DNA of 43,594 nt. Source: a bacterium. Its GTDB lineage: Bacteria > Zhuqueibacterota > Zhuqueibacteria > Residuimicrobiales > Oceaniaggregativiventaceae. The notes under the pieces were generated by a model. It was not told where the DNA came from. It ran no database searches and saw nothing but the letters and a program-made list of their open reading frames with translations. Shown here in pieces: positions 3,566-37,799 of this stretch. Both the position numbers and the translations under genes were made by a program. The stretch lies in assembly GCA_029565675.1 (NCBI GenBank), contig JAKQNP010000037.1, positions 1 through 43,594 of the forward strand, given 5' to 3'. Within the stretch, counting starts at the first letter, position 1. Each line of letters starts with the position of its first letter.

Positions 3566-3616
3566 CAACGATTCTAAAATAACTAAATTGAATGTTTATA
3601 TATATGTGGCTTATGC

Positions 3617-4174: not shown

Positions 4175-4262
4175 ATTCCACCAGGAATGCGTTAAAATTC
4201 ACCAAAGTATTTTAGAATGCGGAATAATGCTTCCTTGTACGTACTTTGGCTAAAATAATGGA

Positions 4263-6716: not shown

Positions 6717-6724
6717 TTTCTCCC

Positions 6725-7480: not shown

Positions 7481-7486
7481 AACGAT

Positions 7487-10290: not shown

Positions 10291-10330
10291 GACAGGACTC
10301 CTTCATTTATTGTCCCAACGCTACCAAGTG

Positions 10331-21100: not shown

Positions 21101-23267
21101 TGGTCAAACTGAATCGCATATTCAAGAGTTTATACCAGTTCCATTTGCCGTCGTCGCCAAAGTTCCATTGGGTGAAAGCTGAGCCGTTGACCGAGACATA
21201 ACACGAATTGCTCGAACTGTTTGGCGGCAGCGCACGCGCCCATAAAGTGTATTGCCCGCTCTGCGGCACATACACATCGTAAGCGATCAAACCCTCGCCG
21301 TAATTTCCGGATAACAGAGGAACGTAAACATATTTGGCACCAGAGGCTCCGAGATCACCGGCGGTGAGGTAACGGTCGAGAGATTTTCCGTGTTCCGCCT
21401 CGATCCAGATGTTGCCGTTGAATTTGCTCTCGATGGAATCGGTGCTGAGGAAGGCCTGACCGGAAACGACACTGAAATCGACAAAGACATTGCTGACACC
21501 GATGTTGTTGATGTCTTTTGCGTAGACGATCAACGGCGAGGCCAGTTGGGTGCCGATTTTACCCGACTCAGGCTCCCCTCCACTGACCAGGCGGGTTGCC
21601 TCCAGCGGTGACAATTCGATGCAGAAATAGTCGACATTGTTGTTGATGTTGCCGTACAGCATGATGCCAGAATAGAGCTCGGATGCATTGCCCAACAATT
21701 TTTTATCATCGTTTACCTGGCCGAGATAGATATTGTCGACATAGACGGAAAACGCATGGCCTTTGGTTTGGCTGTAATTGTAGATGACTTTGAATTCTGA
21801 ACCCGGCGCCGGGTCGAAAGTGGCCGGCATTGGCGATCGCATCAGCTCAGTCAGCTGACCGTAGATATAGGAGTTCAGATAGATGTTGTCCGGACGCACG
21901 CGAATAATGTAGCCGTTGGCGTTGCGATAATCCGGGCTGTCGAGCATCATCGCCAGACCGGTTGCATACATACCGCCTGACTCTTCCGTCACGGTATCTG
22001 ACCATTTCAGTTTAGCGGTCAAGGCACCGATATTGCCGCTGTAAGAAACAGAATCAAACACCGCCAGATAATTGCCCCACGTGGGTATGGTGCTGGTATT
22101 GACCAGCTCACACTGGCCTTCGTCGATCATAAAACTCGCGGGTGCAGACCAGCTGATGCCCAGCGTGTTTTCACAAAAGTCGTCGCAGAACTCGTTGTTG
22201 CTCTCCTGCGGCATATTGACAAAGCCCAGGCTCAATGGACCGCGGTTGTTTCTCTCGTCCCAGGCGCGGATGCCAAAGTAATAGGTGAGCCCGGGGAGAA
22301 GATTGCTCAGAATTGCGCTTTCGGTCTGGCCAGCGGCGGCGGGCTTGCCTTGTGAAACGAGTTTGCCGCTGGAAAAATTGCTGCCGTCGGCAAAAAATTC
22401 ATACATCGCATAACGGAGTTCTGTGAGATTGGTTTGACCGCTGCTGCCATCGTCTCCGGTTGCCTGCCATCGCAAACCCACGCTCCCATCATCGATCGGC
22501 GCCAACGACAACCACTGGATAATGCCTGGATTTCCGGTGTCGGATTGGTTGAATTGATCGATCAGCCGTCCAAATTCTTGTGCCATTTTGGCATAGCCGG
22601 CCGGATCGGGGTGAATACCATCGATCCTGACGTCTGTGGTGGTCAGCACGGTGTTGGCTATGGTGATTTTGCTGGTGATGAACCCCGGCGGGCTGTTGAA
22701 AAACATGCGATCGATTTCTGCATTGTAGTCGGTGGTAAATGCGATTGCATCCAGGCGCGGGGGAATTTTGCTGACGATGATGCGCTGCAGAAAGGTGCCG
22801 CGCGGGCCATTGGCATACTCGCACAGGTATTTAATCAATTGTCCGAGCAGACCGGCTGCAGTGTCGTTAAACGATGTGCCGCCATCCGAAGAATAGGGGC
22901 CGGTGGGCAGCCCTTGGTCGTTGGTGCCAAGATGCAGAATAACCACATTGGGCTGATAGAGATTCATGATATCAGGCGAGAGATATTTTTCCCCAGCTGT
23001 CAACAGATCCCTGATATGCGCTCCCCGTTGAAAAAATCCTTGATAGGGCGCCTCGCCGTCGGGACCGACAAAAGCAAAATTAATCCCTTTGTTCTGCAAA
23101 TATTGATAGAGATTATCCCGATAGCCGATTTCCGGTGTATCGCCGACCCCTTGTGTGATCGAATCGCCGATCGGCATAATCCGCCATACTTGCGCTGCAG
23201 CCGGTGTTAAATGGGCTAGACAAAAGATGAGAAGATACCCCGTCGTCTGATAAAGTCTTTTAAACAA
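15180..23267 (-). CDS. Giant T9SS surface protein: SGNH hydrolase head and Big_1-type repeat stalk
   Basis: A 2695-residue exported protein. I start it at the TTG at 23267: GGGAGG stands 7 nt upstream and the protein then opens with a clean signal peptide (MFKRLYQTTGYLLIFCLAH). The frame is open upstream to a GTG at 23327, but that start would bury the signal. Order: SGNH/GDSL hydrolase, about 27-240 (GDSITQG, LGTNDQG, DGIHPD: S36, N116, D216, H219); fibronectin III-like, 245-345; LamG-like, 360-550; then about 15 bacterial Ig-like (Big_1) domains to about 2230, each with a V-x-V-x-D-x-x-x-N-P core. The first Big_1 domain is split by a CBM6/35-like module (WIEAEHG to DRLLLARS, about 618-750). 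Cadherin-like and fibronectin-like parts follow, then a type A T9SS domain from about 2605 with QNYPNPFNPETQIRF. It probably stands out from the cell on a long stalk and acts on esterified glycans (inference). Confidence 0.88.
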   Translation of the reverse strand: MFKRLYQTTGYLLIFCLAHLTPAAAQVWRIMPIGDSITQGVGDTPEIGYRDNLYQYLQNKGINFAFVGPDGEAPYQGFFQRGAHIRDLLTAGEKYLSPDIMNLYQPNVVILHLGTNDQGLPTGPYSSDGGTSFNDTAAGLLGQLIKYLCEYANGPRGTFLQRIIVSKIPPRLDAIAFTTDYNAEIDRMFFNSPPGFITSKITIANTVLTTTDVRIDGIHPDPAGYAKMAQEFGRLIDQFNQSDTGNPGIIQWLSLAPIDDGSVGLRWQATGDDGSSGQTNLTELRYAMYEFFADGSNFSSGKLVSQGKPAAAGQTESAILSNLLPGLTYYFGIRAWDERNNRGPLSLGFVNMPQESNNEFCDDFCENTLGISWSAPASFMIDEGQCELVNTSTIPTWGNYLAVFDSVSYSGNIGALTAKLKWSDTVTEESGGMYATGLAMMLDSPDYRNANGYIIRVRPDNIYLNSYIYGQLTELMRSPMPATFDPAPGSEFKVIYNYSQTKGHAFSVYVDNIYLGQVNDDKKLLGNASELYSGIMLYGNINNNVDYFCIELSPLEATRLVSGGEPESGKIGTQLASPLIVYAKDINNIGVSNVFVDFSVVSGQAFLSTDSIESKFNGNIWIEAEHGKSLDRYLTAGDLGASGAKYVYVPLLSGNYGEGLIAYDVYVPQSGQYTLWARALPPNSSSNSCYVSVNGSAFTQWNFGDDGKWNWYKLLNMRFSLTKGLNHIEIKNREPDARIDRLLLARSSTYSPSGMGDENQSEIFSNVSSNSGAAFTLVTFDDQAGPIRIKAVAPSISTNNEIIFDLFAQAQDPSNMEYASPIVVAGVAGMPLQTPFAVHLTDPYGNNCIGVQVEFAVTEGDGLFGQDFRIVVSSDENGLAHATPTLGYNLDPVKVTARCPDIPALQPLEFVARKDNGPASLEYVTGNGQIGTVNRPLPISLQVRVLDTKGQPFEGAPIRFTVLQGEGKVDGQSAAIDTTDALGIASISWTLGQQAGVSNQQVRASAPFSPATIDFFASATPDVPIQLKKVSGDNQQTPAGFVFADSLQVQVVDQFQNGVSGYAVRFTVTSGDAHFLQQSTRDDTTNASGIAAVQLSAGRQIGAVQVSAVAVPLLSSGGVVFGNLTITKTEAAKIVVVSGQNQTGTAGSALPQPLVVRVTDPFDSPIENERIWFKTIEGGGHFNGQDSTSSLSSGDGQASAVFTLGTLAGDRSHKVRVYSEDPKLEALVFIHSATAATAYQIDTDPPGETEFSAKAGEGHIPISVKVRDAYNNPKPNHDVDFYSLEAGTFENNAGYRRVQTDANGNAVVNFTMGTNPLRPERIEVKSYRTANSGIHLQGSPLILTGTFIPGDPARLIRASGDGFVGTVSTTLDSPFVVQVVDSYDLPSGEGIDIHFRVKSGDGSIGHTQYFDSQTDQDGKARVYLTLGPVAGVLNNVVEAVASDYPKVASIEFRATATADVADQILFAGDSTWTAAVHSQIQATVKVADIRGNAIGQHPVTFYVGDGGGTVGGKDTVVVLTAANGLASATWELGDRPVLNTLYAQAQRNGSMLDRAPLEFRANAQPANPWFIALKSTEQDTGIIGQILADPLQIEITDRYLNPIAGHPVTFSLYSGSGSFDGAPGGTLVALQTDAHGIAQTYFRLGASVGQTLIEIKSSYQNQPLINRANNSFSSIIVFIWGTPTEASQLVRISASLIDGKASSPVAVSARVLDQSGNPVKDHPVHFQILNQAGSGYFETVGRTYVIKNSNAEGTAEAVWMLGTKAGTRVDSLQISSSNTLGPLRNSPLQIAANVFPADPLAVQSRVNAASSSPVNTRMPVIVTLVDPFGNPVYGRMVRLQLSGTGNTLEQPMAATDSQGRAFGAIQSSQSGEKILTATVVGQTDFSLESAILFTSGSVNSLLIAGGNNQTGNSGTVLAQPFIVQATDAFGNPVAGIPVIFSVQSGGGKFQENQLTQYTATTAADGLASVYLILGQQPDVNNIVFASSPFVAEAKTFSARSMQSAAVMLEPVAGEVYSGTVNDTLANPLQVRVLDANRQPVYHAAVQFMPLNGGLILTADPRSDYQGIARAAYRLGCQAGEQQVMARLTPNIAVTLTIQTKAAAAFQMVKKNGDNQIGTVRKALPQPFAVQIFDSCDNPKPGVPVIYKVIGGQGGHFSNSDTTQTDGYGFAYNLFTLGELAGEYLIQVSSPHLIKQTAVFRCQAQPDVAYAITSHSGNQQRMTTGRELLQPVKVKITDRWNNPVSNYVVSFAPIALDSNTPVGQVINSADTTDSEGIASCRWILGTKPGSNWLLTGWGLVGYPLTLEAIGVSNAYPEFIGLPKDTTIYYNHYSENKLFELWICAEDKDHDPVTIQVNGKPNTAQLLTHKPDSLLLRWRPTSDDNNRVYQLDMIVRDNREGVGIHSLLIRIDGNTAPRVISYKPVNTELVLHRPEKVLFAVTVSDPDPQDAVTFTWQVNGATAGVNSSQYTFDSALYPADTMCELVVLISDGKETSQMRWTLYLVTAVELSSLGAKAEPYKGICIDWTTRSETETAGFQILRSLTPSSGFETLNHQLIAPRKDRTYRFIDTTAVAGRTYHYLLEDIALSGARSQHGPIAVDVQLPQDFQVLQNYPNPFNPETQIRFQLPEAAKTRIAIYNLNGQTVRTLVDEQLEPGYHEITWNGTNDHGKQVGSGVYYYRIEAGKHSGIKKMALVR

Positions 23268-23689
23268 TTGCGTTCCTCCCGCTAGAAACTTGCTGGCTGG
23301 ATTGCGGTTTACCATTTTTATCCGCACTTAAAAAGCAAAAAGTGTACCTCGGTTGCGGATGTAATCGCGGCGCATAATGAGACGTAAATGTATTGATAAT
23401 ATTATAATTAAGAAAAAGGTCTCTGTGGCGACCAGGGAACGGCCTGCAAAAAAGGCGGCAGGGCTGTTTCATGTCGAAACAATCCGCACCAGCAGCATAC
23501 AATTTGACGCCATTCTTTGGTTTTGCAGGAAAATTTTGTTGAGCACGGATGATCGATTGTTTTGGCAAAAGGAGATCGGAATATTGCCATTGGCCGGCAA
23601 CAGCGGATTCCCGGCGGGATAGATGAAAAACGACTGCCACAAGTCGGGCGACAAATCTGGTGATGTTGGAGAGAGCAAAATCCGTGCGA
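23268..23689. other. Intergenic region upstream of the giant gene
   Basis: No gene is recognised in these 422 bp. An AT-rich run at about 23392-23420 could hold the promoter of the giant gene, but I cannot pick a certain -10/-35 pair. ATCCGCA (23320-23326) and TGCGGAT (23354-23360) form a 7-bp inverted repeat within its leader. A weak terminator for the next gene lies at 23626-23646. Confidence 0.5.
23626..23646 (-). terminator. Possible weak terminator after the outer-membrane protein gene
   Basis: Read on the minus strand, CGACT, a 6-nt loop, AGTCG and then TTTTT lie 44 bp past the stop codon at 23690. The 5-bp stem is short, so the call is tentative. Confidence 0.35.
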
Positions 23690-25321: not shown

Positions 25322-28021
25322 ATGGCGGACAAAGAACGATTGTTTTTAATCGATGGCTCAGCCCTGGCATACCGCGCTTTCTATGCATTCGTGCGAAATC
25401 CTCTGGTCAATTCGCGTGGCGAGAATATTTCAGCAGTTTTTGGTTTTAGCAAAACGGTGTTGAAGATCATCGATGAGCAAAAACCAGACTATCTGGCAGT
25501 GGTCTTTGATACGCCGGAACCGACCTTTCGCCATCAGATCTATAAAGAGTACAAAGCCCAACGGGCGCAAATGCCCGCTGAAATGGTTGAGCAACTGCCG
25601 CGGATCCATGAGCTGTGCCGCGTTCTGCAAATTCCTCTGCTCACCTTGTCCGGCTATGAGGCCGATGACTTAATCGGCACCCTGGTCCGGATGGCAGAGG
25701 CGGAAAATCTCTTTACTGTTGTGGTTTCAGGCGACAAAGATCTGCTGCAGTTGGTCTCGCCGTCGACTGTGGTTCTCAATCCCCGCCGTTCAGGCGAAGA
25801 GCCCGAATGGCTGGATGATAAAGCGGTGCAGGAAAAACTGGGGCTCAAGCCGCAACAGGTTGTCGATTATTTGGCATTGATGGGTGATTCTTCTGACAAT
25901 ATTCCAGGTGTTGCCGGTGTCGGGCCCAAGGGAGCCAGCACTTTGCTGCAAAAGTATGGGACATTGGAAGAGATCTTTCGCCATCTCGATGAGATCGGCA
26001 ACAAACGGTTGCAATCCAGTTTAGCCGGCCAGCTTGAATCCGCTCGTTTTTCCCGCACGTTGGCGCAGATCAAGTGCGACCTGGAGCTGCAATGGCGGCC
26101 GTCGCAACTGCGTCTCAGAGAGCCGGATCCGGAAGAGGCCGCAGCTTTTTTTCAAAAACTGGAGATCCAATCGCTCGTCGATCGGTTTTCCATCGGACAA
26201 ACAGAACAGCAGCGCAATTATCTCTGCCTGCAAACACTGGCGCAGGTCAGCCAATTGGCAGAGGATCTCAAGGCCGCAGGTGAATTTGCCTTTGACACCG
26301 AGACCACCGATCTGGCGCCCATGAGTGCGGATCTGGTCGGCTTGTCATTCGCCTATCAGGAAGGGCAGGCGTACTATATCCCCTTGCGCGGTCCAAACGA
26401 CTTGACCGCCGGGTTTCATCCTCTCGACCAGCGGCAGGTGCTGGATCTGTTGCGGCCGATTCTGCAGGACCGCACGATCGGCAAGATGGGCCACAACGCC
26501 AAATACGATATGCTTGTCTTGAGCCAACACGGGGTAGGGGTCGAAGGTCTGGTTTCTGATACCATGGTGGCCAGCTATTTGATCAACCCCTCGGCCAGGC
26601 AACACAATCTCGATGCCGTCACTCTATCCGAGCTGAATATCAAAAAAATCCCCATCACTTCTCTGATCGGCAGCGGGAAAAAACAGCTGCGCATGGATGA
26701 GGTGGCTATCGAACGGATTTGCGAATATGCATGCGAAGATGCGGATATGACCTGGCGGTTATCGCGTTTGTTTCGGCAAAGACTGCAAGATCTTCAGCTG
26801 ATGGACCTTTTTGCTCAGGTCGAGATTCCCCTGACCGCGGTGCTCATGCAGATGGAAAAAAACGGCGTGGTGATCGATACCCCTTTTCTGCAGCAGATGT
26901 CGCGCGAACTGGCAAAAGAACTGCAAAAATTGGAAGCCGAGATCTATGAATTGGCCGGCGAATCCTTTAACATCAACTCGCCAAAGCAACTCGGCGCCAT
27001 TCTGTTTGAAAAACTGCGTTTGCCTTCCATGCGCAAGACCAAAACCGGTTATTCAACCGATGTTACGGTTTTGGAAAAGCTCGCCAACCACCATTTGTTG
27101 CCGCAGACCATTTTGCAGTATCGGCAGTTGGCCAAATTGCAGTCAACCTATGTGGAAACATTGCCGAGTTTGGTCAACCACAAAACCGGGCGGGTTCATA
27201 CCTCTTTCAATCAGACCGTCGCCGCAACCGGCCGCCTATCATCCAGTGAGCCGAATCTGCAAAATATACCAATCCGCACAGATATCGGACGGCGAATTCG
27301 GCGGGCATTCATCCCGCGCAGCAAAGAAAACATCATCGTCGACGCCGACTATTCGCAGATTGAATTGCGGATCATGGCCCATCTGTCTCATGATAAGATG
27401 CTGTGCGATTCGTTTGCCAAGGATGAAGACGTGCATGCTCGGACGGCGGCATTGGTCTTTGGCGTAACCAACGATCAGGTCACTGCCGATCAGCGGCGCA
27501 AGGCCAAGGAAGTGAATTTCGGAATCATGTACGGTATGGGAATCTATGGTTTGGCACAACGGCTGAATATTTCGAGCGAAGAAGCGGACGATTTTATCAA
27601 GAGCTATTTCGCTGTCTATCCCGGGGTGCAGAAATATATGGTCGATATTGTCGATAAAACACGACGGCTCGGCTATGTGACAACTTTGCTGGATCGTCGG
27701 CGATATATTCCGGAAATCAGCAGCGAAAACCGTCAGATTCGCGAATTTGCCGAGCGCACCGCGATCAACACCCCGATTCAGGGGAGCGCTGCGGATCTGA
27801 TCAAGTTGGCGATGATCCGCATCCAGGAACGGCTGCAAAAAGCCAAGATGCGTTCCTGCATGATTTTGCAGGTGCACGATGAGCTGGTTTTTGATGTCTT
27901 TCAACCAGAACGTGAAGAGCTGAAGGAGATGATCCGCCGCGAAATGGAACAGGCGATCGCTCTGTCGGTACCGATAAAAGTGGAGATAGGGGAGGGGCCG
28001 AGTTGGTTTGATGCTCATTGA
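25322..28021 (+). CDS. polA: DNA polymerase I
   Basis: An 899-residue, full-length family A polymerase for Okazaki fragment processing and repair. The 5' nuclease domain (1-290) has LFLIDGSALAYRAFYAF and VVSGDKDLLQLV. The 3'-5' proofreading domain (300-490) is intact, unlike many bacterial PolA proteins: D325 and E327 (FDTETT), D396 (HNAKYD) and D473 (YACEDAD). The polymerase domain has motif A D676 (DADYSQIELR), motif B with F733 and Y737 (KEVNFGIMYG) and motif C D853-E854 (QVHDELVFDV). F733 is the residue that favours discrimination against dideoxynucleotides in E. coli (F762). A weak AAGGCGG site precedes the ATG. The next gene begins 95 bp downstream on the same strand. Confidence 0.98.
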   Translation: MADKERLFLIDGSALAYRAFYAFVRNPLVNSRGENISAVFGFSKTVLKIIDEQKPDYLAVVFDTPEPTFRHQIYKEYKAQRAQMPAEMVEQLPRIHELCRVLQIPLLTLSGYEADDLIGTLVRMAEAENLFTVVVSGDKDLLQLVSPSTVVLNPRRSGEEPEWLDDKAVQEKLGLKPQQVVDYLALMGDSSDNIPGVAGVGPKGASTLLQKYGTLEEIFRHLDEIGNKRLQSSLAGQLESARFSRTLAQIKCDLELQWRPSQLRLREPDPEEAAAFFQKLEIQSLVDRFSIGQTEQQRNYLCLQTLAQVSQLAEDLKAAGEFAFDTETTDLAPMSADLVGLSFAYQEGQAYYIPLRGPNDLTAGFHPLDQRQVLDLLRPILQDRTIGKMGHNAKYDMLVLSQHGVGVEGLVSDTMVASYLINPSARQHNLDAVTLSELNIKKIPITSLIGSGKKQLRMDEVAIERICEYACEDADMTWRLSRLFRQRLQDLQLMDLFAQVEIPLTAVLMQMEKNGVVIDTPFLQQMSRELAKELQKLEAEIYELAGESFNINSPKQLGAILFEKLRLPSMRKTKTGYSTDVTVLEKLANHHLLPQTILQYRQLAKLQSTYVETLPSLVNHKTGRVHTSFNQTVAATGRLSSSEPNLQNIPIRTDIGRRIRRAFIPRSKENIIVDADYSQIELRIMAHLSHDKMLCDSFAKDEDVHARTAALVFGVTNDQVTADQRRKAKEVNFGIMYGMGIYGLAQRLNISSEEADDFIKSYFAVYPGVQKYMVDIVDKTRRLGYVTTLLDRRRYIPEISSENRQIREFAERTAINTPIQGSAADLIKLAMIRIQERLQKAKMRSCMILQVHDELVFDVFQPEREELKEMIRREMEQAIALSVPIKVEIGEGPSWFDAH

Positions 28022-28115: not shown

Positions 28116-28532
28116 ATGGCTCAGGTGTTTGAATTGCAGATTACCAGCGATCCCCGGTTGTTGCGCACGGTGCGACTGACGGTTGAACAGATCTGCCAAA
28201 TCGCCGGTTTTCCCAGACTCGAAGCCAGCAAAATCGTTTTGGCGGTGGATGAAGCCTGCTCGAACGTGATCCGCCATGCATATAAAAACAGGGAAGATCA
28301 GCCCATTCTCATCACTTTTCGCATTTTTTCCACCAAGCTGAAAATCGATTTGGTCGATTTTGGTGAACATTCAAACATCCGCCTGATCAAACCGCGCCCC
28401 TTACACGAATTGCGACCAGGAGGTCTGGGTGTTCATCTGATCAGGAGCGTTATGGACAGAGTCGAGTATAAAAATCTTGAGCGAATCGGTAATCGCCTGG
28501 TGATGGAAAAGAAACTGCCAAAGAGGTCATGA
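28116..28532 (+). CDS. SpoIIAB/RsbW-like serine kinase (GHKL ATPase)
   Basis: A 138-residue HATPase_c_2 protein of the anti-sigma-factor kinase type. The N-box is DEACSNVIRHAY with E46 and N50, the same numbering as the catalytic pair in SpoIIAB; the G1 box is D81-F-G83 and the G2 box is G102-G-L-G105. Proteins of this family bind ATP and phosphorylate a serine on a partner STAS protein. I prefer the ATG at 28116, with AAAGG upstream, over the GTG at 28107. The next gene, 1 nt away, is such a STAS protein, and the genes after that are an Mla transporter, so the target may be the transporter and not a sigma factor (inference). Confidence 0.88.
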   Translation: MAQVFELQITSDPRLLRTVRLTVEQICQIAGFPRLEASKIVLAVDEACSNVIRHAYKNREDQPILITFRIFSTKLKIDLVDFGEHSNIRLIKPRPLHELRPGGLGVHLIRSVMDRVEYKNLERIGNRLVMEKKLPKRS

Positions 28533-28533
28533 A

Positions 28534-28878
28534 TTGAATCTCGAAATCCAAACTGTGAAATTGGACAGGATCACGTTGGTCGAGGTCGCCGGTGAAGTCG
28601 ATCTCTATTCTTCCCCACAACTGCGCAATATTTTGGTCGACTTGGCCGAAAAAAAAACAACCCCCTTGTTGGTGGATTTACAAGCGGTGCGCTATATGGA
28701 CAGCTCCGGCGTCGCCACTCTCATCGAAGGATTGAAGCAGAGTCAACGGTTTAACGGCCGCTTTCTGTTGAGCGGGATATCTGATGAGGTCAAACAGGTA
28801 TTCGAATTGACCCGTCTGTTCAAAGTATTTGAAATTTACGATTCGAAAGCAGCGGCAATGGAGAATTTATCCGCTTGA
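28534..28878 (+). CDS. STAS-domain protein (anti-sigma antagonist type / MlaB-like)
   Basis: A 114-residue single STAS domain starting at TTG, 1 nt after the kinase stop, with AGAGG upstream. The phosphorylation loop reads MDSSGVATL, with S58 at the position phosphorylated in SpoIIAA. Two roles are possible: a classical anti-anti-sigma switch protein, or an MlaB equivalent, the STAS subunit that binds MlaF in the E. coli MlaFEDB complex. Its place directly before mlaE, with a stop-start overlap, favours the second, while the neighbouring kinase favours phospho-control. Confidence 0.88.
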   Translation: MNLEIQTVKLDRITLVEVAGEVDLYSSPQLRNILVDLAEKKTTPLLVDLQAVRYMDSSGVATLIEGLKQSQRFNGRFLLSGISDEVKQVFELTRLFKVFEIYDSKAAAMENLSA

Positions 28879-29678
28879 ACTCCGGGATAAAAACATTCGG
28901 TGCCGTCGGCCGCAGTGCAGGCGAGTTCTTTGCCCAGGTCGCCAGGGTTGCTGACCTTGCCCGTCAGACTTTGTACTGGAGCACCGTGGGGGCGTTTCGC
29001 TATGAACGCATCCGATGGAACGAGACTTTTACCCAGATGGTCCGCATCGGCGTCAATTCATTGCCGATTGTGGGAATGATATCTTTTTTTGTCGGCTTGA
29101 TCATTGCCATGCAGTCCGCTTACCAATTGGAGCGCTTCGGGGCTGTGGTCTATGTCGCTGATCTGGTGGGTGTATCCATAACCCGTGAGCTCGGCCCTCT
29201 GATCACCGCAATCATCATCACCGGCCGCAGCGGTTCGGCAATCGCCGCTGAACTCGGGACCATGAAAGTATCGGAAGAGATCGATGCTCTGCAGACCATG
29301 GCCATCAACCCGGTTTCATTTCTGGTTGTGCCGCGAACTCTGGCCATGCTGATCATGTTGCCCTGCCTGACCATCATGGCTGATTTTCTCGGACTTCTCG
29401 GCGGTTTTGTCCTTGGAGTGGTGCAACTGCAAATCCCTTATTCTGCCTATTTTTCCCATACCGCCGACGCCATCCTGTTCAAAGATTTTTTCACCGGCTT
29501 GAGCAAGAGTGTTTTGTTTGCATTTATTATTGCTCTGATCGGCGCCTATCAGGGGCTCCATGTCCGCGGCGGCGCCGAAGGTGTTGGCAAGTCCACTACC
29601 GACTCGGTGGTGACTTCGATATTTTTGGTCATTTTGAGCGATGTGCTCTTTACCGCCCTGTTTTTCTCGACTTTTTAA
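28875..29678 (+). CDS. mlaE: ABC transporter permease MlaE
   Basis: A 267-residue inner-membrane permease of the MlaE family, which with MlaF and MlaD moves phospholipids between the inner and outer membranes. The core family region is well kept: GMISFFVGLIIAMQSAYQLE, then GVSITRELGPLITAIIITGR, SGSAIAAELGTMKVSEEIDA and VPRTLAMLIMLPCLT. Five to six hydrophobic segments are visible. The TTG start overlaps the STAS stop (TTGA), which suggests translational coupling with that protein. Confidence 0.95.
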   Translation: MNSGIKTFGAVGRSAGEFFAQVARVADLARQTLYWSTVGAFRYERIRWNETFTQMVRIGVNSLPIVGMISFFVGLIIAMQSAYQLERFGAVVYVADLVGVSITRELGPLITAIIITGRSGSAIAAELGTMKVSEEIDALQTMAINPVSFLVVPRTLAMLIMLPCLTIMADFLGLLGGFVLGVVQLQIPYSAYFSHTADAILFKDFFTGLSKSVLFAFIIALIGAYQGLHVRGGAEGVGKSTTDSVVTSIFLVILSDVLFTALFFSTF

Positions 29679-29720
29679 CTCACAAAACCGAATGCCGATT
29701 TGCCGGACGATCGTTGCCTG

Positions 29721-30545
29721 ATGGCAATCAAAACCAAAGCGAACAGCACAGTGACTGTGGATCCGATTATCAAAATTCGCAACCTCAACACCTCCTACGG
29801 CAAACACCAGGTGTTGCAGGGAATCGACCTGGATATCTACCCGGAGGAAACCTTTGTCATACTCGGCCGCTCAGGCTGCGGCAAGAGCACTCTGTTGCGC
29901 CACTTGATGGGCCTGGAAAAACCAACCAGCGGCACCATCTCTATTAAAAACATGGACCTCTTGCACACCAATCAGCCGGGGCGGGCGGAGCTGATGAAAA
30001 AAATGGGCGTCCTCTTTCAAAGCGGCGCTTTGTTCAATTCCATGACAGTCGGCGAAAATGTGGCTCTGCCTTTGCGTGAACACACGCCGCTGGATCCCGC
30101 GACCATCCAGATCATGACCCGCATGAAACTGGAATTGGTGGGGCTTTCCGGATTTTTCGACCATTTGCCGGCCCAGTTGTCCGGCGGCATGCGCAAACGC
30201 GCCGCCCTGGCCAGAGCATTGGCCATGGATCCGGAAATTTTGCTCTGCGACGAGCCTTCCGCCGGTCTGGATCCAATAGTCGCCGTCGGCATCGATCATC
30301 TTATTCTTAAACTCAAAGCCGCCTTCAAGATGTGCATCATCGTGGTCACGCACGAACTTGCCTCGGTTTTTCTTATCGCTGATCGGATCGCCTTGCTGGA
30401 TGGCGGCGTTTTTCGCTTCATCGGCACCCGCGAAGAATTTACCAACAGTCAAGACCCCCGGGTCAGACAATTCCTCGAGCGTCGGCCGGATGATGAAAAA
30501 ATCGATCCTGATTCCTATGTCAATTTGTTGTTGGAAAACCAATAG
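29721..30545 (+). CDS. mlaF: ABC transporter ATPase MlaF
   Basis: A 274-residue ATPase with Walker A GRSGCGKST, the signature LSGGMRKRAALARAL, Walker B ILLCDEPSAGLDP and the switch histidine in VVTHE. This set, with SGGM in place of SGGQ, is typical of MlaF. The start is uncertain: I take the ATG at 29721, but a TTG at 29700 and GTG codons near 29751 are open, and none has a strong ribosome site. The C-terminal tail after the ATPase fold (ERRPDDEKIDPDSYVNLL) is where MlaF makes its dimer handshake and touches the STAS subunit in E. coli. Confidence 0.94.
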   Translation: MAIKTKANSTVTVDPIIKIRNLNTSYGKHQVLQGIDLDIYPEETFVILGRSGCGKSTLLRHLMGLEKPTSGTISIKNMDLLHTNQPGRAELMKKMGVLFQSGALFNSMTVGENVALPLREHTPLDPATIQIMTRMKLELVGLSGFFDHLPAQLSGGMRKRAALARALAMDPEILLCDEPSAGLDPIVAVGIDHLILKLKAAFKMCIIVVTHELASVFLIADRIALLDGGVFRFIGTREEFTNSQDPRVRQFLERRPDDEKIDPDSYVNLLLENQ

Positions 30546-30587
30546 ATTCATGATACCAATCGCGCATCCGAATCTCGGTGGAGGAAT

Positions 30588-31487
30588 ATGGAATATCGAG
30601 AGAGCGAAATCAAAGCAGGTCTCTTTATTTTCATCAGCTTGTTGCTGTTGCTGGCCTTTTTGTTTGTAATCAGCGGTGCCGGTTCCTGGGGGCAAAAGGC
30701 AACCTATCGGGTTCGTTTCCCATCTGTCAGCGGTGTGGAACAAGGTTCACTGGTGCGTTTTGCCGGATTGCAGGTCGGCCGCGTCAAAAATATGGCGATT
30801 CCAGCTGATGACGATTTTTGCGTCGAACTGCTGCTCGAGGTGGAACAAAACACCCCCATTCGCAACAACAGCCAGGCCAAATTGACCACCATCGGCATCA
30901 TGGGTGCCTATTATGTGGAAATCTCCCAGGGGACACCCGATTCGCCGCGCTTGGCACCGGGTTCGCTGATTCCGACAAAGACCGTCTCCACCATCGCTCA
31001 ACTTTCAGAACCCGGCGGCGAAGCGTTGTCGGAATTCAAGGAAATGGTTATCCGCCTCAACCTCCTGCTCAGCCAGGAAAATCGGGACAATTTCGCCTCT
31101 CTGCTGCAAAATCTCAACGATATTACCGCTGCCAATGCAGAACAGACCAGTCGGGTGATGGGCAATCTCGATCGAGCCACCGCGCAACTGGATGAGACCC
31201 TGCAATTGATCAACCAGATCCTCGCGCGCAACGATACCACGTTGCACACCAGTTTAACCCATATGGATCAAATGCTGGTCAAGACGGTTGCGGCAGTCGA
31301 ACAGATCAATCGCCTGACCCTGACCGTCGATACAACAATCGGACAAAATCAGGAAGAGTTGCAGCGACTGACGGAAAATCTGGGTCAATTGGCTGAAAAT
31401 CTCAACCATTTCAGCCAACAGATCAAACAAGAACCCTGGAGTTTGGTTCGCAAAAACTACGTCCCGGAACGCAAGCTGCCTGAATAG
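30588..31487 (+). CDS. mlaD: Lipid-binding MCE protein MlaD
   Basis: A 299-residue periplasmic protein with one N-terminal membrane anchor (about 10-32), an MCE domain (about 36-120; YRVRFPSVSGVEQGSLVRF, VGRVKNMAI, KLTTIGIMGAYYVEI) and a long helical tail (about 140-285) that probably forms a coiled coil. MCE proteins form hexameric rings that pass lipids from or to the permease. GGAGG stands just before the ATG. The longer tail, compared with the 183-residue E. coli MlaD, resembles the needle-type MCE proteins. Confidence 0.94.
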   Translation: MEYRESEIKAGLFIFISLLLLLAFLFVISGAGSWGQKATYRVRFPSVSGVEQGSLVRFAGLQVGRVKNMAIPADDDFCVELLLEVEQNTPIRNNSQAKLTTIGIMGAYYVEISQGTPDSPRLAPGSLIPTKTVSTIAQLSEPGGEALSEFKEMVIRLNLLLSQENRDNFASLLQNLNDITAANAEQTSRVMGNLDRATAQLDETLQLINQILARNDTTLHTSLTHMDQMLVKTVAAVEQINRLTLTVDTTIGQNQEELQRLTENLGQLAENLNHFSQQIKQEPWSLVRKNYVPERKLPE

Positions 31488-31496
31488 CGGGAACTC

Positions 31497-31670
31497 ATGG
31501 TTTTGCTGTTTACCGGGTGCCAGCTGATCGGCAATCGCCCTTGTCGGGATGTCGCGAGCGATTTGGCAAAAAACAGCTGCATTGATCGTTTGTTTTGGGA
31601 ATATTTGCTTTATGTGGTGTCCCCTGGCGGGACGCCGCTGACACCGGATCTAGATTATTTTGCACTGTGA
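31497..31670 (+). CDS. Small protein in the mla operon, possible lipoprotein
   Basis: A 57-codon open frame from ATG to TGA, filling most of the gap between mlaD and the next gene. It begins MVLLFTGCQLIG, which resembles a short lipobox with C8, although there is no charged N-terminus; the rest holds a hydrophobic stretch (LFWEYLLYVV). It lies in the same frame as mlaD, four codons after that gene's single UAG stop, so it could be an independent gene, a read-through extension or the remnant of a longer mlaD. GCGGGAA upstream is only a fair ribosome site. I recognise no family. Confidence 0.45.
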   Translation: MVLLFTGCQLIGNRPCRDVASDLAKNSCIDRLFWEYLLYVVSPGGTPLTPDLDYFAL

Positions 31671-31685
31671 GGATGGGTAGCGAAT

Positions 31686-32261
31686 ATGAGAATTTGCCAA
31701 GCGATTGCACTTTTCTTCTTTTTGGGCCTGGCTTGCAGTCAGGCTCCGACGACTCGATATTACACCCTGAATCCAACCTGTCCGGAAGAGCTCGGCACGG
31801 GCGGACAGGTTGTTCTCTATATACAGCCGTTTCGCGCGGTTTCTCCCTATGAGCAAGATCGCTTTATCTACCGGATTTCGCCTTATGAGATCAAGTTCGA
31901 CACCTATCGCCGATGGGTTGCCTCGCCGGCGCAAATTCTGGAGGAAGCGGCGGTGCGTTTTTTTCGCGCGCAGGATTTGTTTGCAAGAGTGGTCACGGTT
32001 ATGCCCGCCGCGCCACATGTGCGCATGAGCGTTCTGGTGGAAGGATTTGAAGAGATTGCGATAGGAGACAAGCATGCGGCGCAGATCAAACTGTGGCTGG
32101 AGTTGACCGATTCCAGCGGCCGGATTTTGCTGCAGCGCCAATTTTTGCGTCAGCAACCTATCGCACAAAACAGTGTCCAGGCCATTCTCGATGCGCTCAA
32201 TCAGAGTGCGACGAATCTTTATCAAGATCTTTATCAAGAGATGCAGACTGCCATTCCTTGA
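31686..32261 (+). CDS. ABC-type transport auxiliary lipoprotein (PqiC/ABC_trans_aux-like)
   Basis: A 191-residue lipoprotein with signal peptide and lipobox LGLACS (C17). After it, TTRYYTLNPT is the YYxL opening of the ABC_trans_aux family, found with MCE transporters and thought to sit on the outer membrane as the receiving end of the lipid path. VLYIQPFRA, a strand with FIYRISPYEIKFDTYRRWV, and PAQILEEAAVRFF fit the family fold. The start has GGATGGG upstream. It is the last gene of the mla cluster. Confidence 0.82.
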   Translation: MRICQAIALFFFLGLACSQAPTTRYYTLNPTCPEELGTGGQVVLYIQPFRAVSPYEQDRFIYRISPYEIKFDTYRRWVASPAQILEEAAVRFFRAQDLFARVVTVMPAAPHVRMSVLVEGFEEIAIGDKHAAQIKLWLELTDSSGRILLQRQFLRQQPIAQNSVQAILDALNQSATNLYQDLYQEMQTAIP

Positions 32262-32431: not shown

Positions 32432-32460
32432 TTGACATTTTCTCGCCAAGTTTGTATACT
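32432..32460 (+). promoter_or_regulatory. Consensus-type sigma-70 promoter of the lacI pair
   Basis: TTGACA (32432-32437) and TATACT (32455-32460) are separated by exactly 17 bp. This is the best promoter in the window. Transcription should begin near 32467, just before the first operator. Confidence 0.85.
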
Positions 32461-32472
32461 TTAGCTGAAATT

Positions 32473-32484
32473 GGAAGCGCTTCC
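32473..32484 (+). promoter_or_regulatory. LacI-family operator O1
   Basis: GGAAGCGCTTCC is a perfect 12-bp palindrome with the central CG typical of LacI/GalR operators. It lies just after the expected transcription start, where a bound repressor would block initiation. The likely binder is one or both of the LacI proteins encoded downstream (inference). Confidence 0.75.
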
Positions 32485-32508
32485 GAAGGAAGTGTTTTTT
32501 TTTCAGTT

Positions 32509-32526
32509 CATGGAAGGGCTTCCATG
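32509..32526 (+). promoter_or_regulatory. Second palindrome O2, overlapping the lacI start codon
   Basis: CATGGAAGGGCTTCCATG has perfect 8-bp arms about a GG centre and shares GGAAG/CTTCC with O1. It covers the ribosome site and the ATG at 32524. In RNA it could fold and hide the start. It also creates a five-codon ORF (ATG at 32510) whose stop overlaps the lacI start as ATGA. Confidence 0.6.
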
Positions 32527-33639
32527 AACAAAGTTGATGGGGATGGCACATGCCTGCCATTTCCTGCAGATCGTAACATTAGGGCGGGGGCTGCTTTGGC
32601 AGTTACCATCTATGATGTTGCACTCAAAGCCGGCGTCGGAATAGGGACCGTCTCCAGAGCCATCAACAACCATCCCAATGTCCACCCGGAAACCAAAGCG
32701 CGAATCCTGCGAATCGCTCAGGAACTCAACTATCTTCCCCACGCCTTGGCACAAAGCCTGGCCCGCAAAAAGACGCAATCCGTCGGCTGTATCGTACCGT
32801 TCTTAACCAGCTATTTCACCTCCGAACTTCTCAAACACATCCAACGCGCATTGACCGAACTCAATTATGATTTGATTCTCTTCAGCCTGGACTGCATGGA
32901 ACGTCTCAGCAAAATGGTGGACCGCGTTCTAAGCGAGCGCCGAGTTGATGGCATTCTGTCGATCTCCGTCGGTTTGACCCAGAAGCATATCGATCGGCTT
33001 GTCCATCAGGGCCTGCCTGTGGTCATGGTCGACGGCTTGTCGCAAAAAGTCGATTATGTCTCGGTCGACAATCTGCGCGGTGCCCAACAGGCAACGGAAC
33101 ACCTGATCCGTCTGGGCCATCACCGCATCGGGCTGATCAATGGCAGTTTGCAGAGTTCCCCGGCCCGTCTGCGGCAACAGGGTTTTGTCAAAGCTCTGAA
33201 CGAAAGCGGAAGGCCGGTCGACCCGACTCTCTGGGTGGCCGACAAATCCAACCGCCGTGAAAACGGTTTCACTGAAGAGACGGGCTATGCCGCTATGCTG
33301 CGGCTGCTCAATCTGGGCAAAAATCGGCCGACGGCTCTCTTCGCCGCCGATGATGTGTTGGCGCTCGGCGCCATGCATGCGGCTCAGGAAAAAGGTGTGC
33401 GCATTCCTGATGATCTGGCCATGGTCGGTTTCGACGATATCGAATTCGCCAAATTCCTCGGTTTGACCACCATGCGTCAACCAGCGGTCGAAATGGCCAA
33501 CCGTGCCGTCAAGCATCTGGTCGACCGCATGCAGGTCACTCCATCGGCCAGGATCGCCCTCGAATTGATGCCTGAACTGATTGTAAGGGAAAGCTGCGGC
33601 TGCCGCCGTCATTTTTGTCTCGCTGAACAACTCAGCTGA
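32524..33639 (+). CDS. LacI-family transcriptional regulator (first of a tandem pair)
   Basis: A 371-residue regulator. After a 27-residue leader, the helix-turn-helix reads VTIYDVALKAGVGIGTVSRA and the hinge helix LPHALAQSLARKK. The sugar-binding-type domain follows (VDGILSISVG, TALFAADDVLALGAM, PDDLAMVGFDDIEFAKF), ending in a Cys-rich tail (RESCGCRRHFC). Such proteins repress sugar-uptake and degradation genes until an effector binds. The start is ATG 32524; it lies inside a palindrome, next to a consensus promoter and operator, which points to self-repression. The controlled targets are probably the receptor and surface genes downstream. Confidence 0.93.
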   Translation: MNKVDGDGTCLPFPADRNIRAGAALAVTIYDVALKAGVGIGTVSRAINNHPNVHPETKARILRIAQELNYLPHALAQSLARKKTQSVGCIVPFLTSYFTSELLKHIQRALTELNYDLILFSLDCMERLSKMVDRVLSERRVDGILSISVGLTQKHIDRLVHQGLPVVMVDGLSQKVDYVSVDNLRGAQQATEHLIRLGHHRIGLINGSLQSSPARLRQQGFVKALNESGRPVDPTLWVADKSNRRENGFTEETGYAAMLRLLNLGKNRPTALFAADDVLALGAMHAAQEKGVRIPDDLAMVGFDDIEFAKFLGLTTMRQPAVEMANRAVKHLVDRMQVTPSARIALELMPELIVRESCGCRRHFCLAEQLS

Positions 33640-33655: not shown

Positions 33656-34738
33656 GTGCCGCAGGGAAAAATCGCTCTCAATAAAAAACAGGGGCCGGAT
33701 TTGGCTGTAACCATCTATGATGTTGCCAGAGCAGCGGGTGTGGGAATCGGTACGGTCTCCCGCGCAATGAACAACGCCAACCATATCCATCCGGATACGC
33801 GAAAGCGAATCATGGAAATCGCCAGCCAACTCAATTATCAACCCAATGGTGTTGCCCAGCGGCTCGCCCGACGCAAGACCTTCACCATTGCCAGCGTGGT
33901 TCCCTTCTTCTTCAACTATTTCTATCTCGACCTGCTTAAATACATTCAGAACGAGCTCGGTCATTGCCACTACGACCTCTTTGTCTACAGCATCGATCGA
34001 TTCGACAACATGAATCAGGTTTTTGACCGGGTGTTGGCTGAGCGGAAAACCGATGGCATTTTGATCCTGTCGCTTGAGCTGGGGGCAGACTATGCAGAAA
34101 AATTCCGCCACGCCAAGGTGCCGGTGGTGTTGGTGGACGCCACCCATGCGCAGCTCGATTCGATTGTGATCGCCAATCGCAAAGGTGCCCTGGTCGCCAC
34201 CGAACATCTCATTCACCTCGGTCACCGCCGCATCGGAATGATCAACGGCGATCTCAACAGCTTTCCGGCGCGTTCCCGTTTGCAGGGATTTCATGAAGCC
34301 ATGCAACACCATGGCCTTGAACTCGATCCGATCGTCATGCGCATGTGCGACGCACAAACCGGCGCACATGGATTTAACGAACAAGCCGGCTATCTGGCGA
34401 TGCAGGAGTTGTTGGCTCTCAAATCGGCCTTGCCAACAGCGCTTTTTATCGCAGCGGATGTGCAGGCCGTTGGTGCAATGCGGGCGATTCACGAAGCGAG
34501 GCTTCGCATCCCCGATGATATCGCGATTGTTGGTTTTGATGATATTGATTTTTCAAAATATATCGGTCTGACAACCATGAAACAACCGCTGCAGGAAATG
34601 GCCCGCCTGGCGGTGCAACGGCTCCTGCTCTGCATGGAGTGTCGACCAGATGGCGATTTTCATCTTGAACTCAATCCCAAACTGGTGGTGCGCCAGACAT
34701 GCGGCGCCAAAAAACAACCTGTTATCGTCTCGGTGTGA
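33656..34738 (+). CDS. LacI-family transcriptional regulator (second of the pair)
   Basis: A 360-residue paralogue of the previous gene, starting with GTG 16 bp after it. Its recognition region VTIYDVARAAGVGIGTVSRA is almost identical to that of the first protein, so both may read the same operators. The effector domain differs more (VDATHAQLDSIVIANRKGAL, PTALFIAADVQAVGAM), so they may answer to different ligands or form mixed dimers (inference). Both end in a similar VRxxCG motif. The pair looks like a recent tandem duplication. Confidence 0.92.
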   Translation: MPQGKIALNKKQGPDLAVTIYDVARAAGVGIGTVSRAMNNANHIHPDTRKRIMEIASQLNYQPNGVAQRLARRKTFTIASVVPFFFNYFYLDLLKYIQNELGHCHYDLFVYSIDRFDNMNQVFDRVLAERKTDGILILSLELGADYAEKFRHAKVPVVLVDATHAQLDSIVIANRKGALVATEHLIHLGHRRIGMINGDLNSFPARSRLQGFHEAMQHHGLELDPIVMRMCDAQTGAHGFNEQAGYLAMQELLALKSALPTALFIAADVQAVGAMRAIHEARLRIPDDIAIVGFDDIDFSKYIGLTTMKQPLQEMARLAVQRLLLCMECRPDGDFHLELNPKLVVRQTCGAKKQPVIVSV

Positions 34739-34805
34739 ACCTCGTGACCGTAAAACCGGCTGAGGTTACCCACAAACTCAACAAGAGAACTGTATGGAGC
34801 TGATT

Positions 34806-37799
34806 ATGAGAAAGCGGCAAGTGTTACTCCTCATCTGTGCAAGCGTTGTGCTTGGCCTGCTGCCTGCTCAGGCCGGCACAACCGGCAAGATTGCCGGAAA
34901 AGTGGTGGATAAAGCGACCAACGACCCGCTGCCCGGCGCCAATGTCATCGTGGAAAATACGACCATGGGAGCGGCAAGCGACCTCGACGGCAACTTTACG
35001 ATTCTCAACGTATCCCCCGGCACCTATACCGTTCGGGCCAGAATGATCGGCTACACAGACATGCGCGTGCAGGGCGTGGTGGTACGGATCGATTTGACCA
35101 GCAGCATCGATTTCGCCTTGTCGGAAACGGTTCTGGAAATCGGCGAAGCGGTGACCGTGGTGGCCGAGCGGCCGATGATTATCAAAGATTTGACCGCCAC
35201 CACCGCGGTGGTCGGCGCCGAAGATATGAAGGCTTTGCCAGTCGCGGAGGTCAACGATGCCGTCGAGCTGCAGGCTGGTCTGATCAAGGATGCCAATGGC
35301 GGCTTGCACGTGCGCGGCGGGCGCAGCGGCGAGCTCAGCTACTGGATCGACGGCATGCCGATAACCGACGTCTATGACGGCGGCGCTGTTGTCGATGTCA
35401 ACAAGAATATGGTGCAAGAACTGCAGGTGGTCAGCGGCGCTTTCAACGCCGAATATGGACAGGCCATGTCCGGAATCGTCAATATCGCCACCAAGGATGG
35501 CAACAACGACTTTGGCGCTTCCGCGACTGTGTATTTCGGTGACCACCTCAGCAGCCATGATCATATCTTTACCCATATCGACGATATCAATCCGGCAGCG
35601 ATCTACAACTTTGAAGGCAGCCTGCAAGGGCCGGTGATCAAGGACAAGTTTTTCTTTTATTTGAACGGCCGTTACATCAATTTCGATGGCTATCATTACG
35701 GTCAGCGGCAATACAATCCATGGGCGGTTACCACCAATGCTGCTGTACCACGCGAGCTGGTCGAGCAGGTGGCGCCGGAATATCTCGACCGCGGTCGCAT
35801 GCTGGACGATGGACTTTTTGGCTTCGCCTATGTGCTCGGCACCAATTCGTACATCGATTCCATCATCGTAAGCCAAAACTTGCCGCAAAACACGACTTTC
35901 GAAGAAGCGATGGCGCGCTATATGGCGGCGCATGCTCCAGACGGCCGCGGCGATGGCAAATATTTGCCGATGAACTGGAACGACAAGATTTACGGCCAGG
36001 CCAAGCTGATTTACAAGTTCAATCCTGCGTTGAAATTTGCTTACAACATCATTTCCGACAATGTCGATTACCAGGATTATGACCGCAACTATTCGCTCAA
36101 TCCGGATGGCAATCTGCTGCGTTTCCGCCGCGGCCTGACTCAGATTGGCCAGGTCACCCATCTGTTGAACGATCGCACTTTCTATCAGGTCGGCGTCTCC
36201 TATTTCAGCAAAAAATACAACCATTATTTAAACAAGGATCTGCGAAGCGGTCAGTTTGTCCATCCATTTCTGGATGTCCAGGAACCCTACAGCTTCAAGA
36301 CCGCCGGCACCAACAATTCCTATTTTGAACGGCAGACCAACACCCTGTTGACCAAAGCCGACATCACCAGCCAGCTCAATCAATTGCACCAGGTCAAGGC
36401 CGGCCTTGAATTCCGGCAGCACAAAGTCTTTCAGGAAGACATCACGGTGCGGCCGGATTCTTTGCAGGTCAACATCGATCCTCTCTTCGACAGTCCATTC
36501 ATTATCAATCCGACAGTCGAAGGAGCCTATTCACCTTACTACAGCACCTACACCTACAACCCGATGGAATTTTCCGTCTATTTGCAAGACAAGATGGAAT
36601 TCGAGAACATGATCGTCAATGTCGGTGTGCGATACGATTACTTTAACTCCGACGGTGTGGTGCTTGCAGATCCGAATGATCCGGAGGTTCTCAACCCGCG
36701 CGAGTTGAGCAATATTTTCAAGGATTACGGATCGGACGGCAATCCGAACACTTTTGACGCCAACGGCAGCGAGGGGAACAATCTTCTGGACGACGGGGAA
36801 GCTCTGGTAACTCTGGCTGAACGAAAGGCTTATTGGTATAAGAAGGTGGGAGCCAAAACCAAGGTCAGTCCACGCATCGGCGTTTCATTCCCGATCACCG
36901 AAACCGGCGTGATCCATTTCAGTTATGGCCATTTCTTTCAGGTGCCGCGTTTCGAACGGCTTTATCAGAACCCTGATTTTGAAGTTGCAGCCGGCACCAA
37001 TATCGCCATTATCGGCAATGCTGACCTCCAACCCGAACAAACCGTCAATGGTGAGATCGGTCTGCAGCAGCAGCTCGGAGACGATATTTCCGTCGGTGCA
37101 ACCGGCTTTTTCCGCGATATTCGCAATTTGGCCGGTTCGCGTGCCGAGGTGCGGATCCTCAAGGACAACACCCGTTATATCCGTTTTATCAACAGCGATT
37201 TTGGATTTATCAAAGGTCTGACTCTTTCCTTCAACAAGCGTTTTTCCGGCGGGTTCTCCGCTTCGCTCGATTACACCCTGCAAGAAGCCAAGGGCACCAA
37301 TTCAGATCCCGAACAGGCGCGCAATGCGCTGAACGGCGGTGCCCTGCCGGAAATCCAGTTGTCTTCCCTGAATTGGGATCAGAAACACACGGTAAATGGC
37401 AGTTTTTCCTATGCTGCCAAGAGTTGGGGTTTGAGCATGATCGGCCAGTGGGGGAGCGGGCTTCCCTATACACCGCGCAACTCGCAGGATATCACCTCGC
37501 TGTTGACCAACAGCCAGCGCAAAAAAGCTGCCTACAACATCGATCTGCGTGCCTATCGCGATTTTCGCTTTGGACGCGGCATGGTAACGGTTTTTACCCG
37601 GGTATTCAACCTTCTCGATACGCTGAATGAGGTCAACGTTTACGACGATTCAGGTCAGGCTTCTTTTACCATCGATCGATCGATTGCCGAGAGCCAGAAT
37701 CCTCAGCAGTTGATCAATTCACTCGAACAATGGTTCACCAACGCCACGCATTATTCCGAACCGCGGCGAATCGAATTTGGCGTGACTTATAGTTTCTGA
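34806..37799 (+). CDS. TonB-dependent outer-membrane receptor with carboxypeptidase-regulatory-like domain
   Basis: A 997-residue receptor. I prefer the ATG at 34806, with GGAG 6 nt upstream and a signal peptide directly after it; an ATG four codons earlier is open. Residues about 25-105 form the beta-sandwich seen in SusC-like proteins (GKIAGKVVDKATNDPLPGAN). The plug domain (about 120-230) has LHVRGGRSGELSYWIDGMPI and AEYGQAMSGIVNIATK. The rest is a 22-strand barrel ending in FGVTYSF. It takes up an unknown large ligand, probably a glycan breakdown product given the LacI regulators upstream. No SusD gene follows, unlike in Bacteroidota. Confidence 0.93.
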   Translation: MRKRQVLLLICASVVLGLLPAQAGTTGKIAGKVVDKATNDPLPGANVIVENTTMGAASDLDGNFTILNVSPGTYTVRARMIGYTDMRVQGVVVRIDLTSSIDFALSETVLEIGEAVTVVAERPMIIKDLTATTAVVGAEDMKALPVAEVNDAVELQAGLIKDANGGLHVRGGRSGELSYWIDGMPITDVYDGGAVVDVNKNMVQELQVVSGAFNAEYGQAMSGIVNIATKDGNNDFGASATVYFGDHLSSHDHIFTHIDDINPAAIYNFEGSLQGPVIKDKFFFYLNGRYINFDGYHYGQRQYNPWAVTTNAAVPRELVEQVAPEYLDRGRMLDDGLFGFAYVLGTNSYIDSIIVSQNLPQNTTFEEAMARYMAAHAPDGRGDGKYLPMNWNDKIYGQAKLIYKFNPALKFAYNIISDNVDYQDYDRNYSLNPDGNLLRFRRGLTQIGQVTHLLNDRTFYQVGVSYFSKKYNHYLNKDLRSGQFVHPFLDVQEPYSFKTAGTNNSYFERQTNTLLTKADITSQLNQLHQVKAGLEFRQHKVFQEDITVRPDSLQVNIDPLFDSPFIINPTVEGAYSPYYSTYTYNPMEFSVYLQDKMEFENMIVNVGVRYDYFNSDGVVLADPNDPEVLNPRELSNIFKDYGSDGNPNTFDANGSEGNNLLDDGEALVTLAERKAYWYKKVGAKTKVSPRIGVSFPITETGVIHFSYGHFFQVPRFERLYQNPDFEVAAGTNIAIIGNADLQPEQTVNGEIGLQQQLGDDISVGATGFFRDIRNLAGSRAEVRILKDNTRYIRFINSDFGFIKGLTLSFNKRFSGGFSASLDYTLQEAKGTNSDPEQARNALNGGALPEIQLSSLNWDQKHTVNGSFSYAAKSWGLSMIGQWGSGLPYTPRNSQDITSLLTNSQRKKAAYNIDLRAYRDFRFGRGMVTVFTRVFNLLDTLNEVNVYDDSGQASFTIDRSIAESQNPQQLINSLEQWFTNATHYSEPRRIEFGVTYSF

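Follow-up and report, generated by a model that had tools for sequence, protein, structure and literature searches.

The window is the whole 43,594-nucleotide stretch analysed here (contig JAKQNP010000037.1 of assembly GCA_029565675.1; our contig C27), from a 4.43 Mb genome that is 95% complete and whose closest named relatives belong to candidate division KSB1. At positions 28116-32261, after polA, lies a run of six genes on the same strand, in which a GHKL serine kinase and a STAS protein directly precede an Mla/MCE lipid ABC transporter (MlaE, MlaF and MlaD) and an auxiliary lipoprotein; this kinase-STAS-transporter locus is the subject of the analysis. The genes, all on the forward strand, are:

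25322..28021, +, polA, the upstream neighbour, which is context outside the proposed switch
28116..28532, +, GHKL serine kinase of the RsbW/SpoIIAB type, 138 amino acids (PF13581, 97.7 bits, E=6.9e-28)
28534..28878, +, full-length STAS protein of the SpoIIAA/RsbV type, presumed MlaB equivalent, 114 amino acids, TTG start (PF01740, E=8.9e-22; TIGR00377)
28875..29678, +, mlaE, MCE lipid ABC transporter permease, TTG start (PF02405, 277 bits, E=9.7e-83; TIGR00056)
29721..30545, +, mlaF, ATPase with a C-terminal handshake extension (PF00005, E=2.1e-32)
30588..31487, +, mlaD, MCE-domain protein (PF02470, 64.1 bits, E=1.4e-17), gene order conserved
31686..32261, +, ABC-type transport auxiliary lipoprotein (PF03886, 38 bits against a cut-off of 26, E=1.6e-9), gene order conserved

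All six genes of the run have Pfam support, and NCBIfam cut-offs were additionally passed by the STAS protein (TIGR00377, 93.6 bits against 53.45) and MlaE (TIGR00056, 261.4 bits against 212.2). The kinase stop codon (28530-28532) is separated by 1 nucleotide from the STAS TTG at 28534, and the STAS stop codon (28876-28878) overlaps the mlaE TTG at 28875 by 4 nucleotides, the same spacing as was given in an earlier reading of this DNA, here called the original prediction.

The kinase was assigned to the GHKL fold by its N-box Glu and Asn (E46, codon 28251-28253; N50, codon 28263-28265) and its G box, together with D81, G83 and an RPGGLG box, so that the full serine kinase originally called from E46 and N50 stands. 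E46, N50, D81, G83 and G105 were invariant across 41 ortholog sequences. An AlphaFold2 model (predicted local distance difference test, pLDDT, 88) had its best fold matches in the PDB to SpoIIAB and RsbW (1l0o, 6m37, 1th8), the nearest solved structures. The kinase fell below the NCBIfam equivalog cut-offs for RsbW (73 and 67.9 bits; cut-offs 145 and 155) and SpoIIAB (42.9 bits; cut-off 135).

The STAS protein, modelled with a pLDDT of 91.9, has the SpoIIAA/RsbV-type fold with a D-S-[ST]-G acceptor motif and a C-terminal strand (E100-102) and helix (H105-113); TM1442, RsbV and SpoIIAA were its nearest solved structures. It did not reach the NCBIfam equivalog cut-off for SpoIIAA, nor that for mlaB_1 (25.7 bits; cut-off 90). 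The predicted phospho-acceptor is S57 (codon 28702-28704) within D56-S57-S58-G59, because alignments of 1th8 ('mdssg') and its variant 1tid ('mdasg') show that the altered residue, the phospho-serine of SpoIIAA, is the first Ser after the Asp. This serine is number 58 along chain B of 1th8, and the match to S58 of the window protein, which the original prediction had taken as the SpoIIAA-like site, is a coincidence of numbering; S58 was rejected. T52 of E. coli MlaB (V-D-T52-G-G) likewise aligns to S57.

MlaE, MlaF and MlaD make up the component set of an Mla/MCE lipid ABC transporter. Among the nearest solved relatives of MlaF and MlaE, Mla proteins from Pseudomonas, Acinetobacter and E. coli predominated, alongside a mycobacterial Mce transporter. 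The system resembles E. coli MlaFEDB in these three families, in the STAS gene within the operon, in the handshake motif of MlaF and in the acceptor-type residue at the T52 position. It differs in its dedicated kinase and PP2C phosphatase, in a full-length SpoIIAA-type STAS protein with an extra strand and helix, and in a longer MCE protein; moreover, no match to MlaC or MlaA was found in the whole source genome, which encodes the auxiliary lipoprotein instead and is thus without the Mla pathway in the E. coli sense.

Conservation was assessed in 60 genomes, the source genome and 59 relatives, whose loci are non-independent observations. The kinase ortholog was separated by score from paralogs in nearly all 60, and it adjoins STAS-mlaE in every one of the 54 genomes that hold this mlaE, so the adjacency of kinase and mlaE is not a matter of chance. 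The full order kinase-STAS-mlaE-mlaF-mlaD-auxiliary lipoprotein was present in 35 of 40 fetched regions, with two more cut by contig ends, and DSSG is present in all 38 STAS sequences. A related kinase-STAS pair in one of these genomes (L241; G028 C23:96018-96901) has no mla gene within about 4 kb and may serve another output.

For a wider comparison, the 80 closest kinases were taken from one scan across 84,980 species genomes, with kinase similarity as the sole basis of selection. The kinase was linked to the transporter in 72 of the 80 loci: 65 with kinase-STAS-mlaE on the same strand, six divergent, and one frame-broken copy (L175). DSSG was found in 70/70 linked STAS proteins scored in this collection. 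By record labels, which may err on metagenome-assembled genomes, the linked loci span more than ten phyla (KSB1/Calditrichota, Nitrospirota, Planctomycetota, Thermodesulfobacteriota, Myxococcota, Pseudomonadota, Nitrospinota, Tectimicrobiota, Auribacterota, Omnitrophota, Fidelibacterota and Hydrogenedentota). A survey for the kinase-STAS-mlaEFD order had been suggested with the original prediction, and the linkage proved conserved in the relatives and in the wider loci alike. The mla-linked kinases do not form one strict clade: the kinase tree places non-linked rows among them, some of these on short contigs or having lost the operon, and its long branches leave the deep order unsure. Two kinase-STAS pairs labelled Verrucomicrobia (L177, L182) carry DSCG instead of DSSG, with no mlaE in the locus.

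The divergent loci follow a Desulfobacteraceae-type layout, in which mlaF-mlaE-mlaD-STAS lies on the opposite strand and the kinase faces away (L143, L146, L149, L157, L176); in a further one (L171) the contig end is reached before STAS. A PP2C gene precedes the kinase in L146, L149, L157, L171 and L176. The STAS gene here closes the mla operon, at the position of mlaB in E. coli. This layout, with STAS alongside the transporter and kinase and phosphatase in a unit of their own, argues that the STAS protein is a transporter subunit and the enzymes its regulators.

A SpoIIE-type PP2C gene also lies just upstream of the kinase in 49 of the 65 same-strand loci, mostly overlapping it or within tens of bases, so that kinase, STAS and phosphatase are encoded together there as in a partner switch; in several relatives it sits between polA and the kinase. 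In three of these 49 loci (L164, L180 and L186) phosphatase and kinase form a single protein, and the two share a frame in L175. In the three phosphatases scanned for it (the operon copy of L116, the ortholog of the source genome and the fusion L180), a GAF domain stands ahead of the PP2C domain. The source genome encodes 12 SpoIIE phosphatases, none linked to the window locus. One of them, C2:170505-171872, was the best own-genome match of every operon phosphatase, with 50% identity to the L116 protein over 429 residues (next full-length match, 28%), and is the unlinked ortholog. Such an ortholog was found, with a clear score gap above paralogs, in 42 of the 60 genomes, all of them within the 54 that have the transporter. 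The original remark that no sigma factor or PP2C gene lies nearby is correct for PP2C within the window, but the phosphatase does belong to the system. Probably the ancestral order in the group was PP2C-kinase-STAS-mlaE-mlaF-mlaD-auxiliary lipoprotein, often after polA, and the phosphatase gene moved in the family of the window.

Two side observations concern these enzymes. The fusions L164, L180 and L186 are near-identical yet labelled Rhodospirillaceae and Marinimicrobia, and one of these labels is probably wrong (a misbinned or mislabelled metagenome-assembled genome). In the source genome, STAS, kinase and phosphatase genes also form a cluster apart from the window locus (L029; G000 C64:66119-70712), which includes several SpoIIE proteins and is possibly a classical partner switch.

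The MlaF of the window ends in a tail at about 30474-30542, in which Y-x3-L-L (30516-30533) has the same spacing as Y261, L265 and L266 of the E. coli C-terminal extension, the residues that dock in the MlaF-MlaB groove (PMC7367683). The handshake motif Y-x3-L-[LVI] recurs in the linked loci (wider set: Y or F in 53/57, L or I in 54/57). It was missing from all 16 complete MlaF proteins of kinase-free systems, namely those beside long STAS-MlaE-type permeases and a STAS-less paralog of the same genome. The window STAS thus shares with MlaB both its encoding with mlaFED and its pairing with an MlaF handshake tail. In E. coli the tail is required for assembly and dispensable for the binary MlaF-MlaB contact (PMC7367683), and its presence is therefore supportive of STAS binding, not proof of it.

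What was observed is a conserved gene set with its catalytic and acceptor residues, a second layout, fusions and the handshake tail. These features suggest that a complete partner switch of GAF-PP2C phosphatase, RsbW-like kinase and STAS protein probably controls the Mla/MCE lipid ABC transporter, with the unphosphorylated STAS protein as the predicted on state. We infer phosphotransfer, binding partners, on/off direction and signal as follows. Unphosphorylated STAS would act as MlaB, docking on the helical subdomain and C-terminal handshake of MlaF, and would thereby assemble MlaF with MlaE-MlaD and permit ATP hydrolysis. The kinase would phosphorylate S57, where STAS helix 2 begins, in the middle of the predicted MlaF interface, upon which STAS would leave MlaF and transport would stop. 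On a signal, the GAF-PP2C phosphatase would strip the phosphate from STAS and transport would restart; in the lineage of the window, where the phosphatase gene has presumably left the operon, the copy on contig C2 would do this in trans. Of the two readings offered in the original prediction, that in which STAS phosphorylation switches lipid transport thus has strong comparative support at the sequence level (more than ten phyla, the alternative layout, PP2C and the handshake tail).

Some observations weigh against a dedicated transporter switch. No phosphatase ortholog was found, at the search sensitivity used, in 12 of the 54 transporter-bearing relatives. Three relatives (G004, G008, G022; loci L072, L073, L074) have the kinase without STAS-mlaE; it is intact in the genus g4 (G004, G008), and its G box is degraded in G022 (SSPRLG), as expected if the job of the kinase is gone there. 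The STAS fold is nearer to RsbV/SpoIIAA (template modelling, TM, score about 0.83-0.9) than to MlaB (TM about 0.62, 19% identity), so that STAS-MlaF binding is a prediction. Finally, E. coli MlaB and the kinase-free STAS-MlaE fusions have an acceptor Ser/Thr too, the fusions mostly as DSAG.

The kinases kept by these three relatives and the likeness of both proteins, by sequence and fold, to RsbW/SpoIIAB and RsbV/SpoIIAA would also suit a switch of the conventional kind, acting on a sigma factor or another cytosolic target, that is co-transcribed with the mla genes by chance or senses through them. Against this stand the linkage over so many phyla and its two layouts, in one of which STAS belongs to the mlaFED operon, as well as the handshake tail of MlaF that accompanies a separate STAS. 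A whole-genome profile search, moreover, found no SigB/F/G-type factor over its family cut-off in the source genome (weaker sigma-70 matches scored 119 and 110 bits). We regard such a switch as quite improbable, and the second reading of the original prediction, a sigma-factor switch sensing the transporter, found no support. The proposed transporter switch shares kinase, STAS substrate and PP2C families, motifs and folds with SpoIIAB-SpoIIAA-SpoIIE and RsbW-RsbV-RsbU; it differs from these in its predicted output, the ATPase of an ABC transporter and not a sigma factor, and in scores below the RsbW, SpoIIAB and SpoIIAA equivalog cut-offs.

In E. coli, assembly of MlaF with MlaE depends on MlaB, whose T52 is located centrally in the surface of contact with MlaF; binding to MlaF is weaker with T52E, and ATPase activity is abolished with T52A (PMC7367683, PMC5016091). 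Conservation of S57 alone is therefore no evidence of phosphorylation, since the acceptor is kept in STAS proteins without a kinase and the E. coli T52A protein is inactive. Covariation of the acceptor with kinase presence was considered and dropped: the residue changed from Ser58 to Ala in the fusions is the one next to the acceptor, which stays Ser. These fused STAS-MlaE permeases (PMC5016091; L222-L240) are like the window system in tying a STAS domain to an MlaE transporter, and unlike it in having no kinase in the fetched loci, mostly DSAG and an MlaF without the handshake tail. The presence of S57 where there is no kinase, and the need for E. coli MlaB in assembly with no phosphorylation known, would also fit a STAS protein that is a constitutive MlaB-like assembly factor, chaperoned or held by the kinase without meaningful phosphorylation. 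The almost invariant E46, N50 and G-box residues of the kinase and the co-encoded or fused GAF-domain PP2C phosphatase argue against this, and we consider it very unlikely.

The sign of the predicted switch was weighed on known STAS proteins. Phosphorylated STAS might instead be the transport-competent form, or free kinase might inhibit MlaF directly, and E. coli T52A, which still binds MlaF but loses ATPase activity (PMC5016091), is a misfit with simple phospho-off logic. The lowered MlaF binding of T52E (PMC7367683) points the other way, as does the SypE-SypA pair of Vibrio fischeri, where the unphosphorylated STAS protein SypA is the active form (PMC8256260); an opposite sign therefore seems unlikely. 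The SypE-SypA and Bordetella BtrW-BtrV pairs resemble the window system in having a STAS protein under phosphorylation control. For SypA the review gives the target as unknown (PMC8256260), whereas here a target is proposed from the conserved operon.

Control of MlaB by T52 phosphorylation has been proposed for E. coli, with the kinase named in neither paper (PMC7367683, PMC5016091), in agreement with the original statement that no kinase is known for MlaB. In open-licence full-text literature only these two papers were directly relevant as precedent, and a STAS review made no mention of Mla. The locus is genuine and deeply conserved, and within this literature it has no earlier description; precedent in subscription journals or preprints is possible. 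We think it fairly likely that it represents a class of MCE transporters, widespread and gated by phosphorylation, in which a GAF-PP2C/kinase/STAS switch has the MlaF ATPase as its direct output and lipid flux between two membranes is controlled in many phyla by reversible serine phosphorylation. If so, partner switching would extend from transcription to the direct gating of an ABC transporter, a kinase would be supplied for an MlaB-type subunit, and the means by which bacteria tune outer-membrane lipid traffic could be approached. The operon family offers a ready set of kinase, phosphatase and substrate tied to a transporter in more than ten phyla, with which the E. coli MlaB question becomes testable on matched proteins.

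Elsewhere in the window (34-2010 and 2480-11143, -), about 31 CRISPR repeats (GTTTCAATTCCACTCTGGTTCGATTAGGGC, 30 nucleotides) form an array beside a type I cas set of cas1, cas4, cas3, cas5, cas7, a TM1802-type cas8 and cas6. The remaining features were judged by eye, the regulators and receptor from translations only. A single open reading frame of 2715 amino acids (15180-23327, -) encodes a giant secreted protein that appears repetitive and has a sorting-like C-terminus. Downstream of the lipoprotein gene are tandem LacI-like regulators (32452-33639 and 33656-34738), the second of which lies about 50 nucleotides before a TonB-dependent-receptor-like gene (34794-37799).

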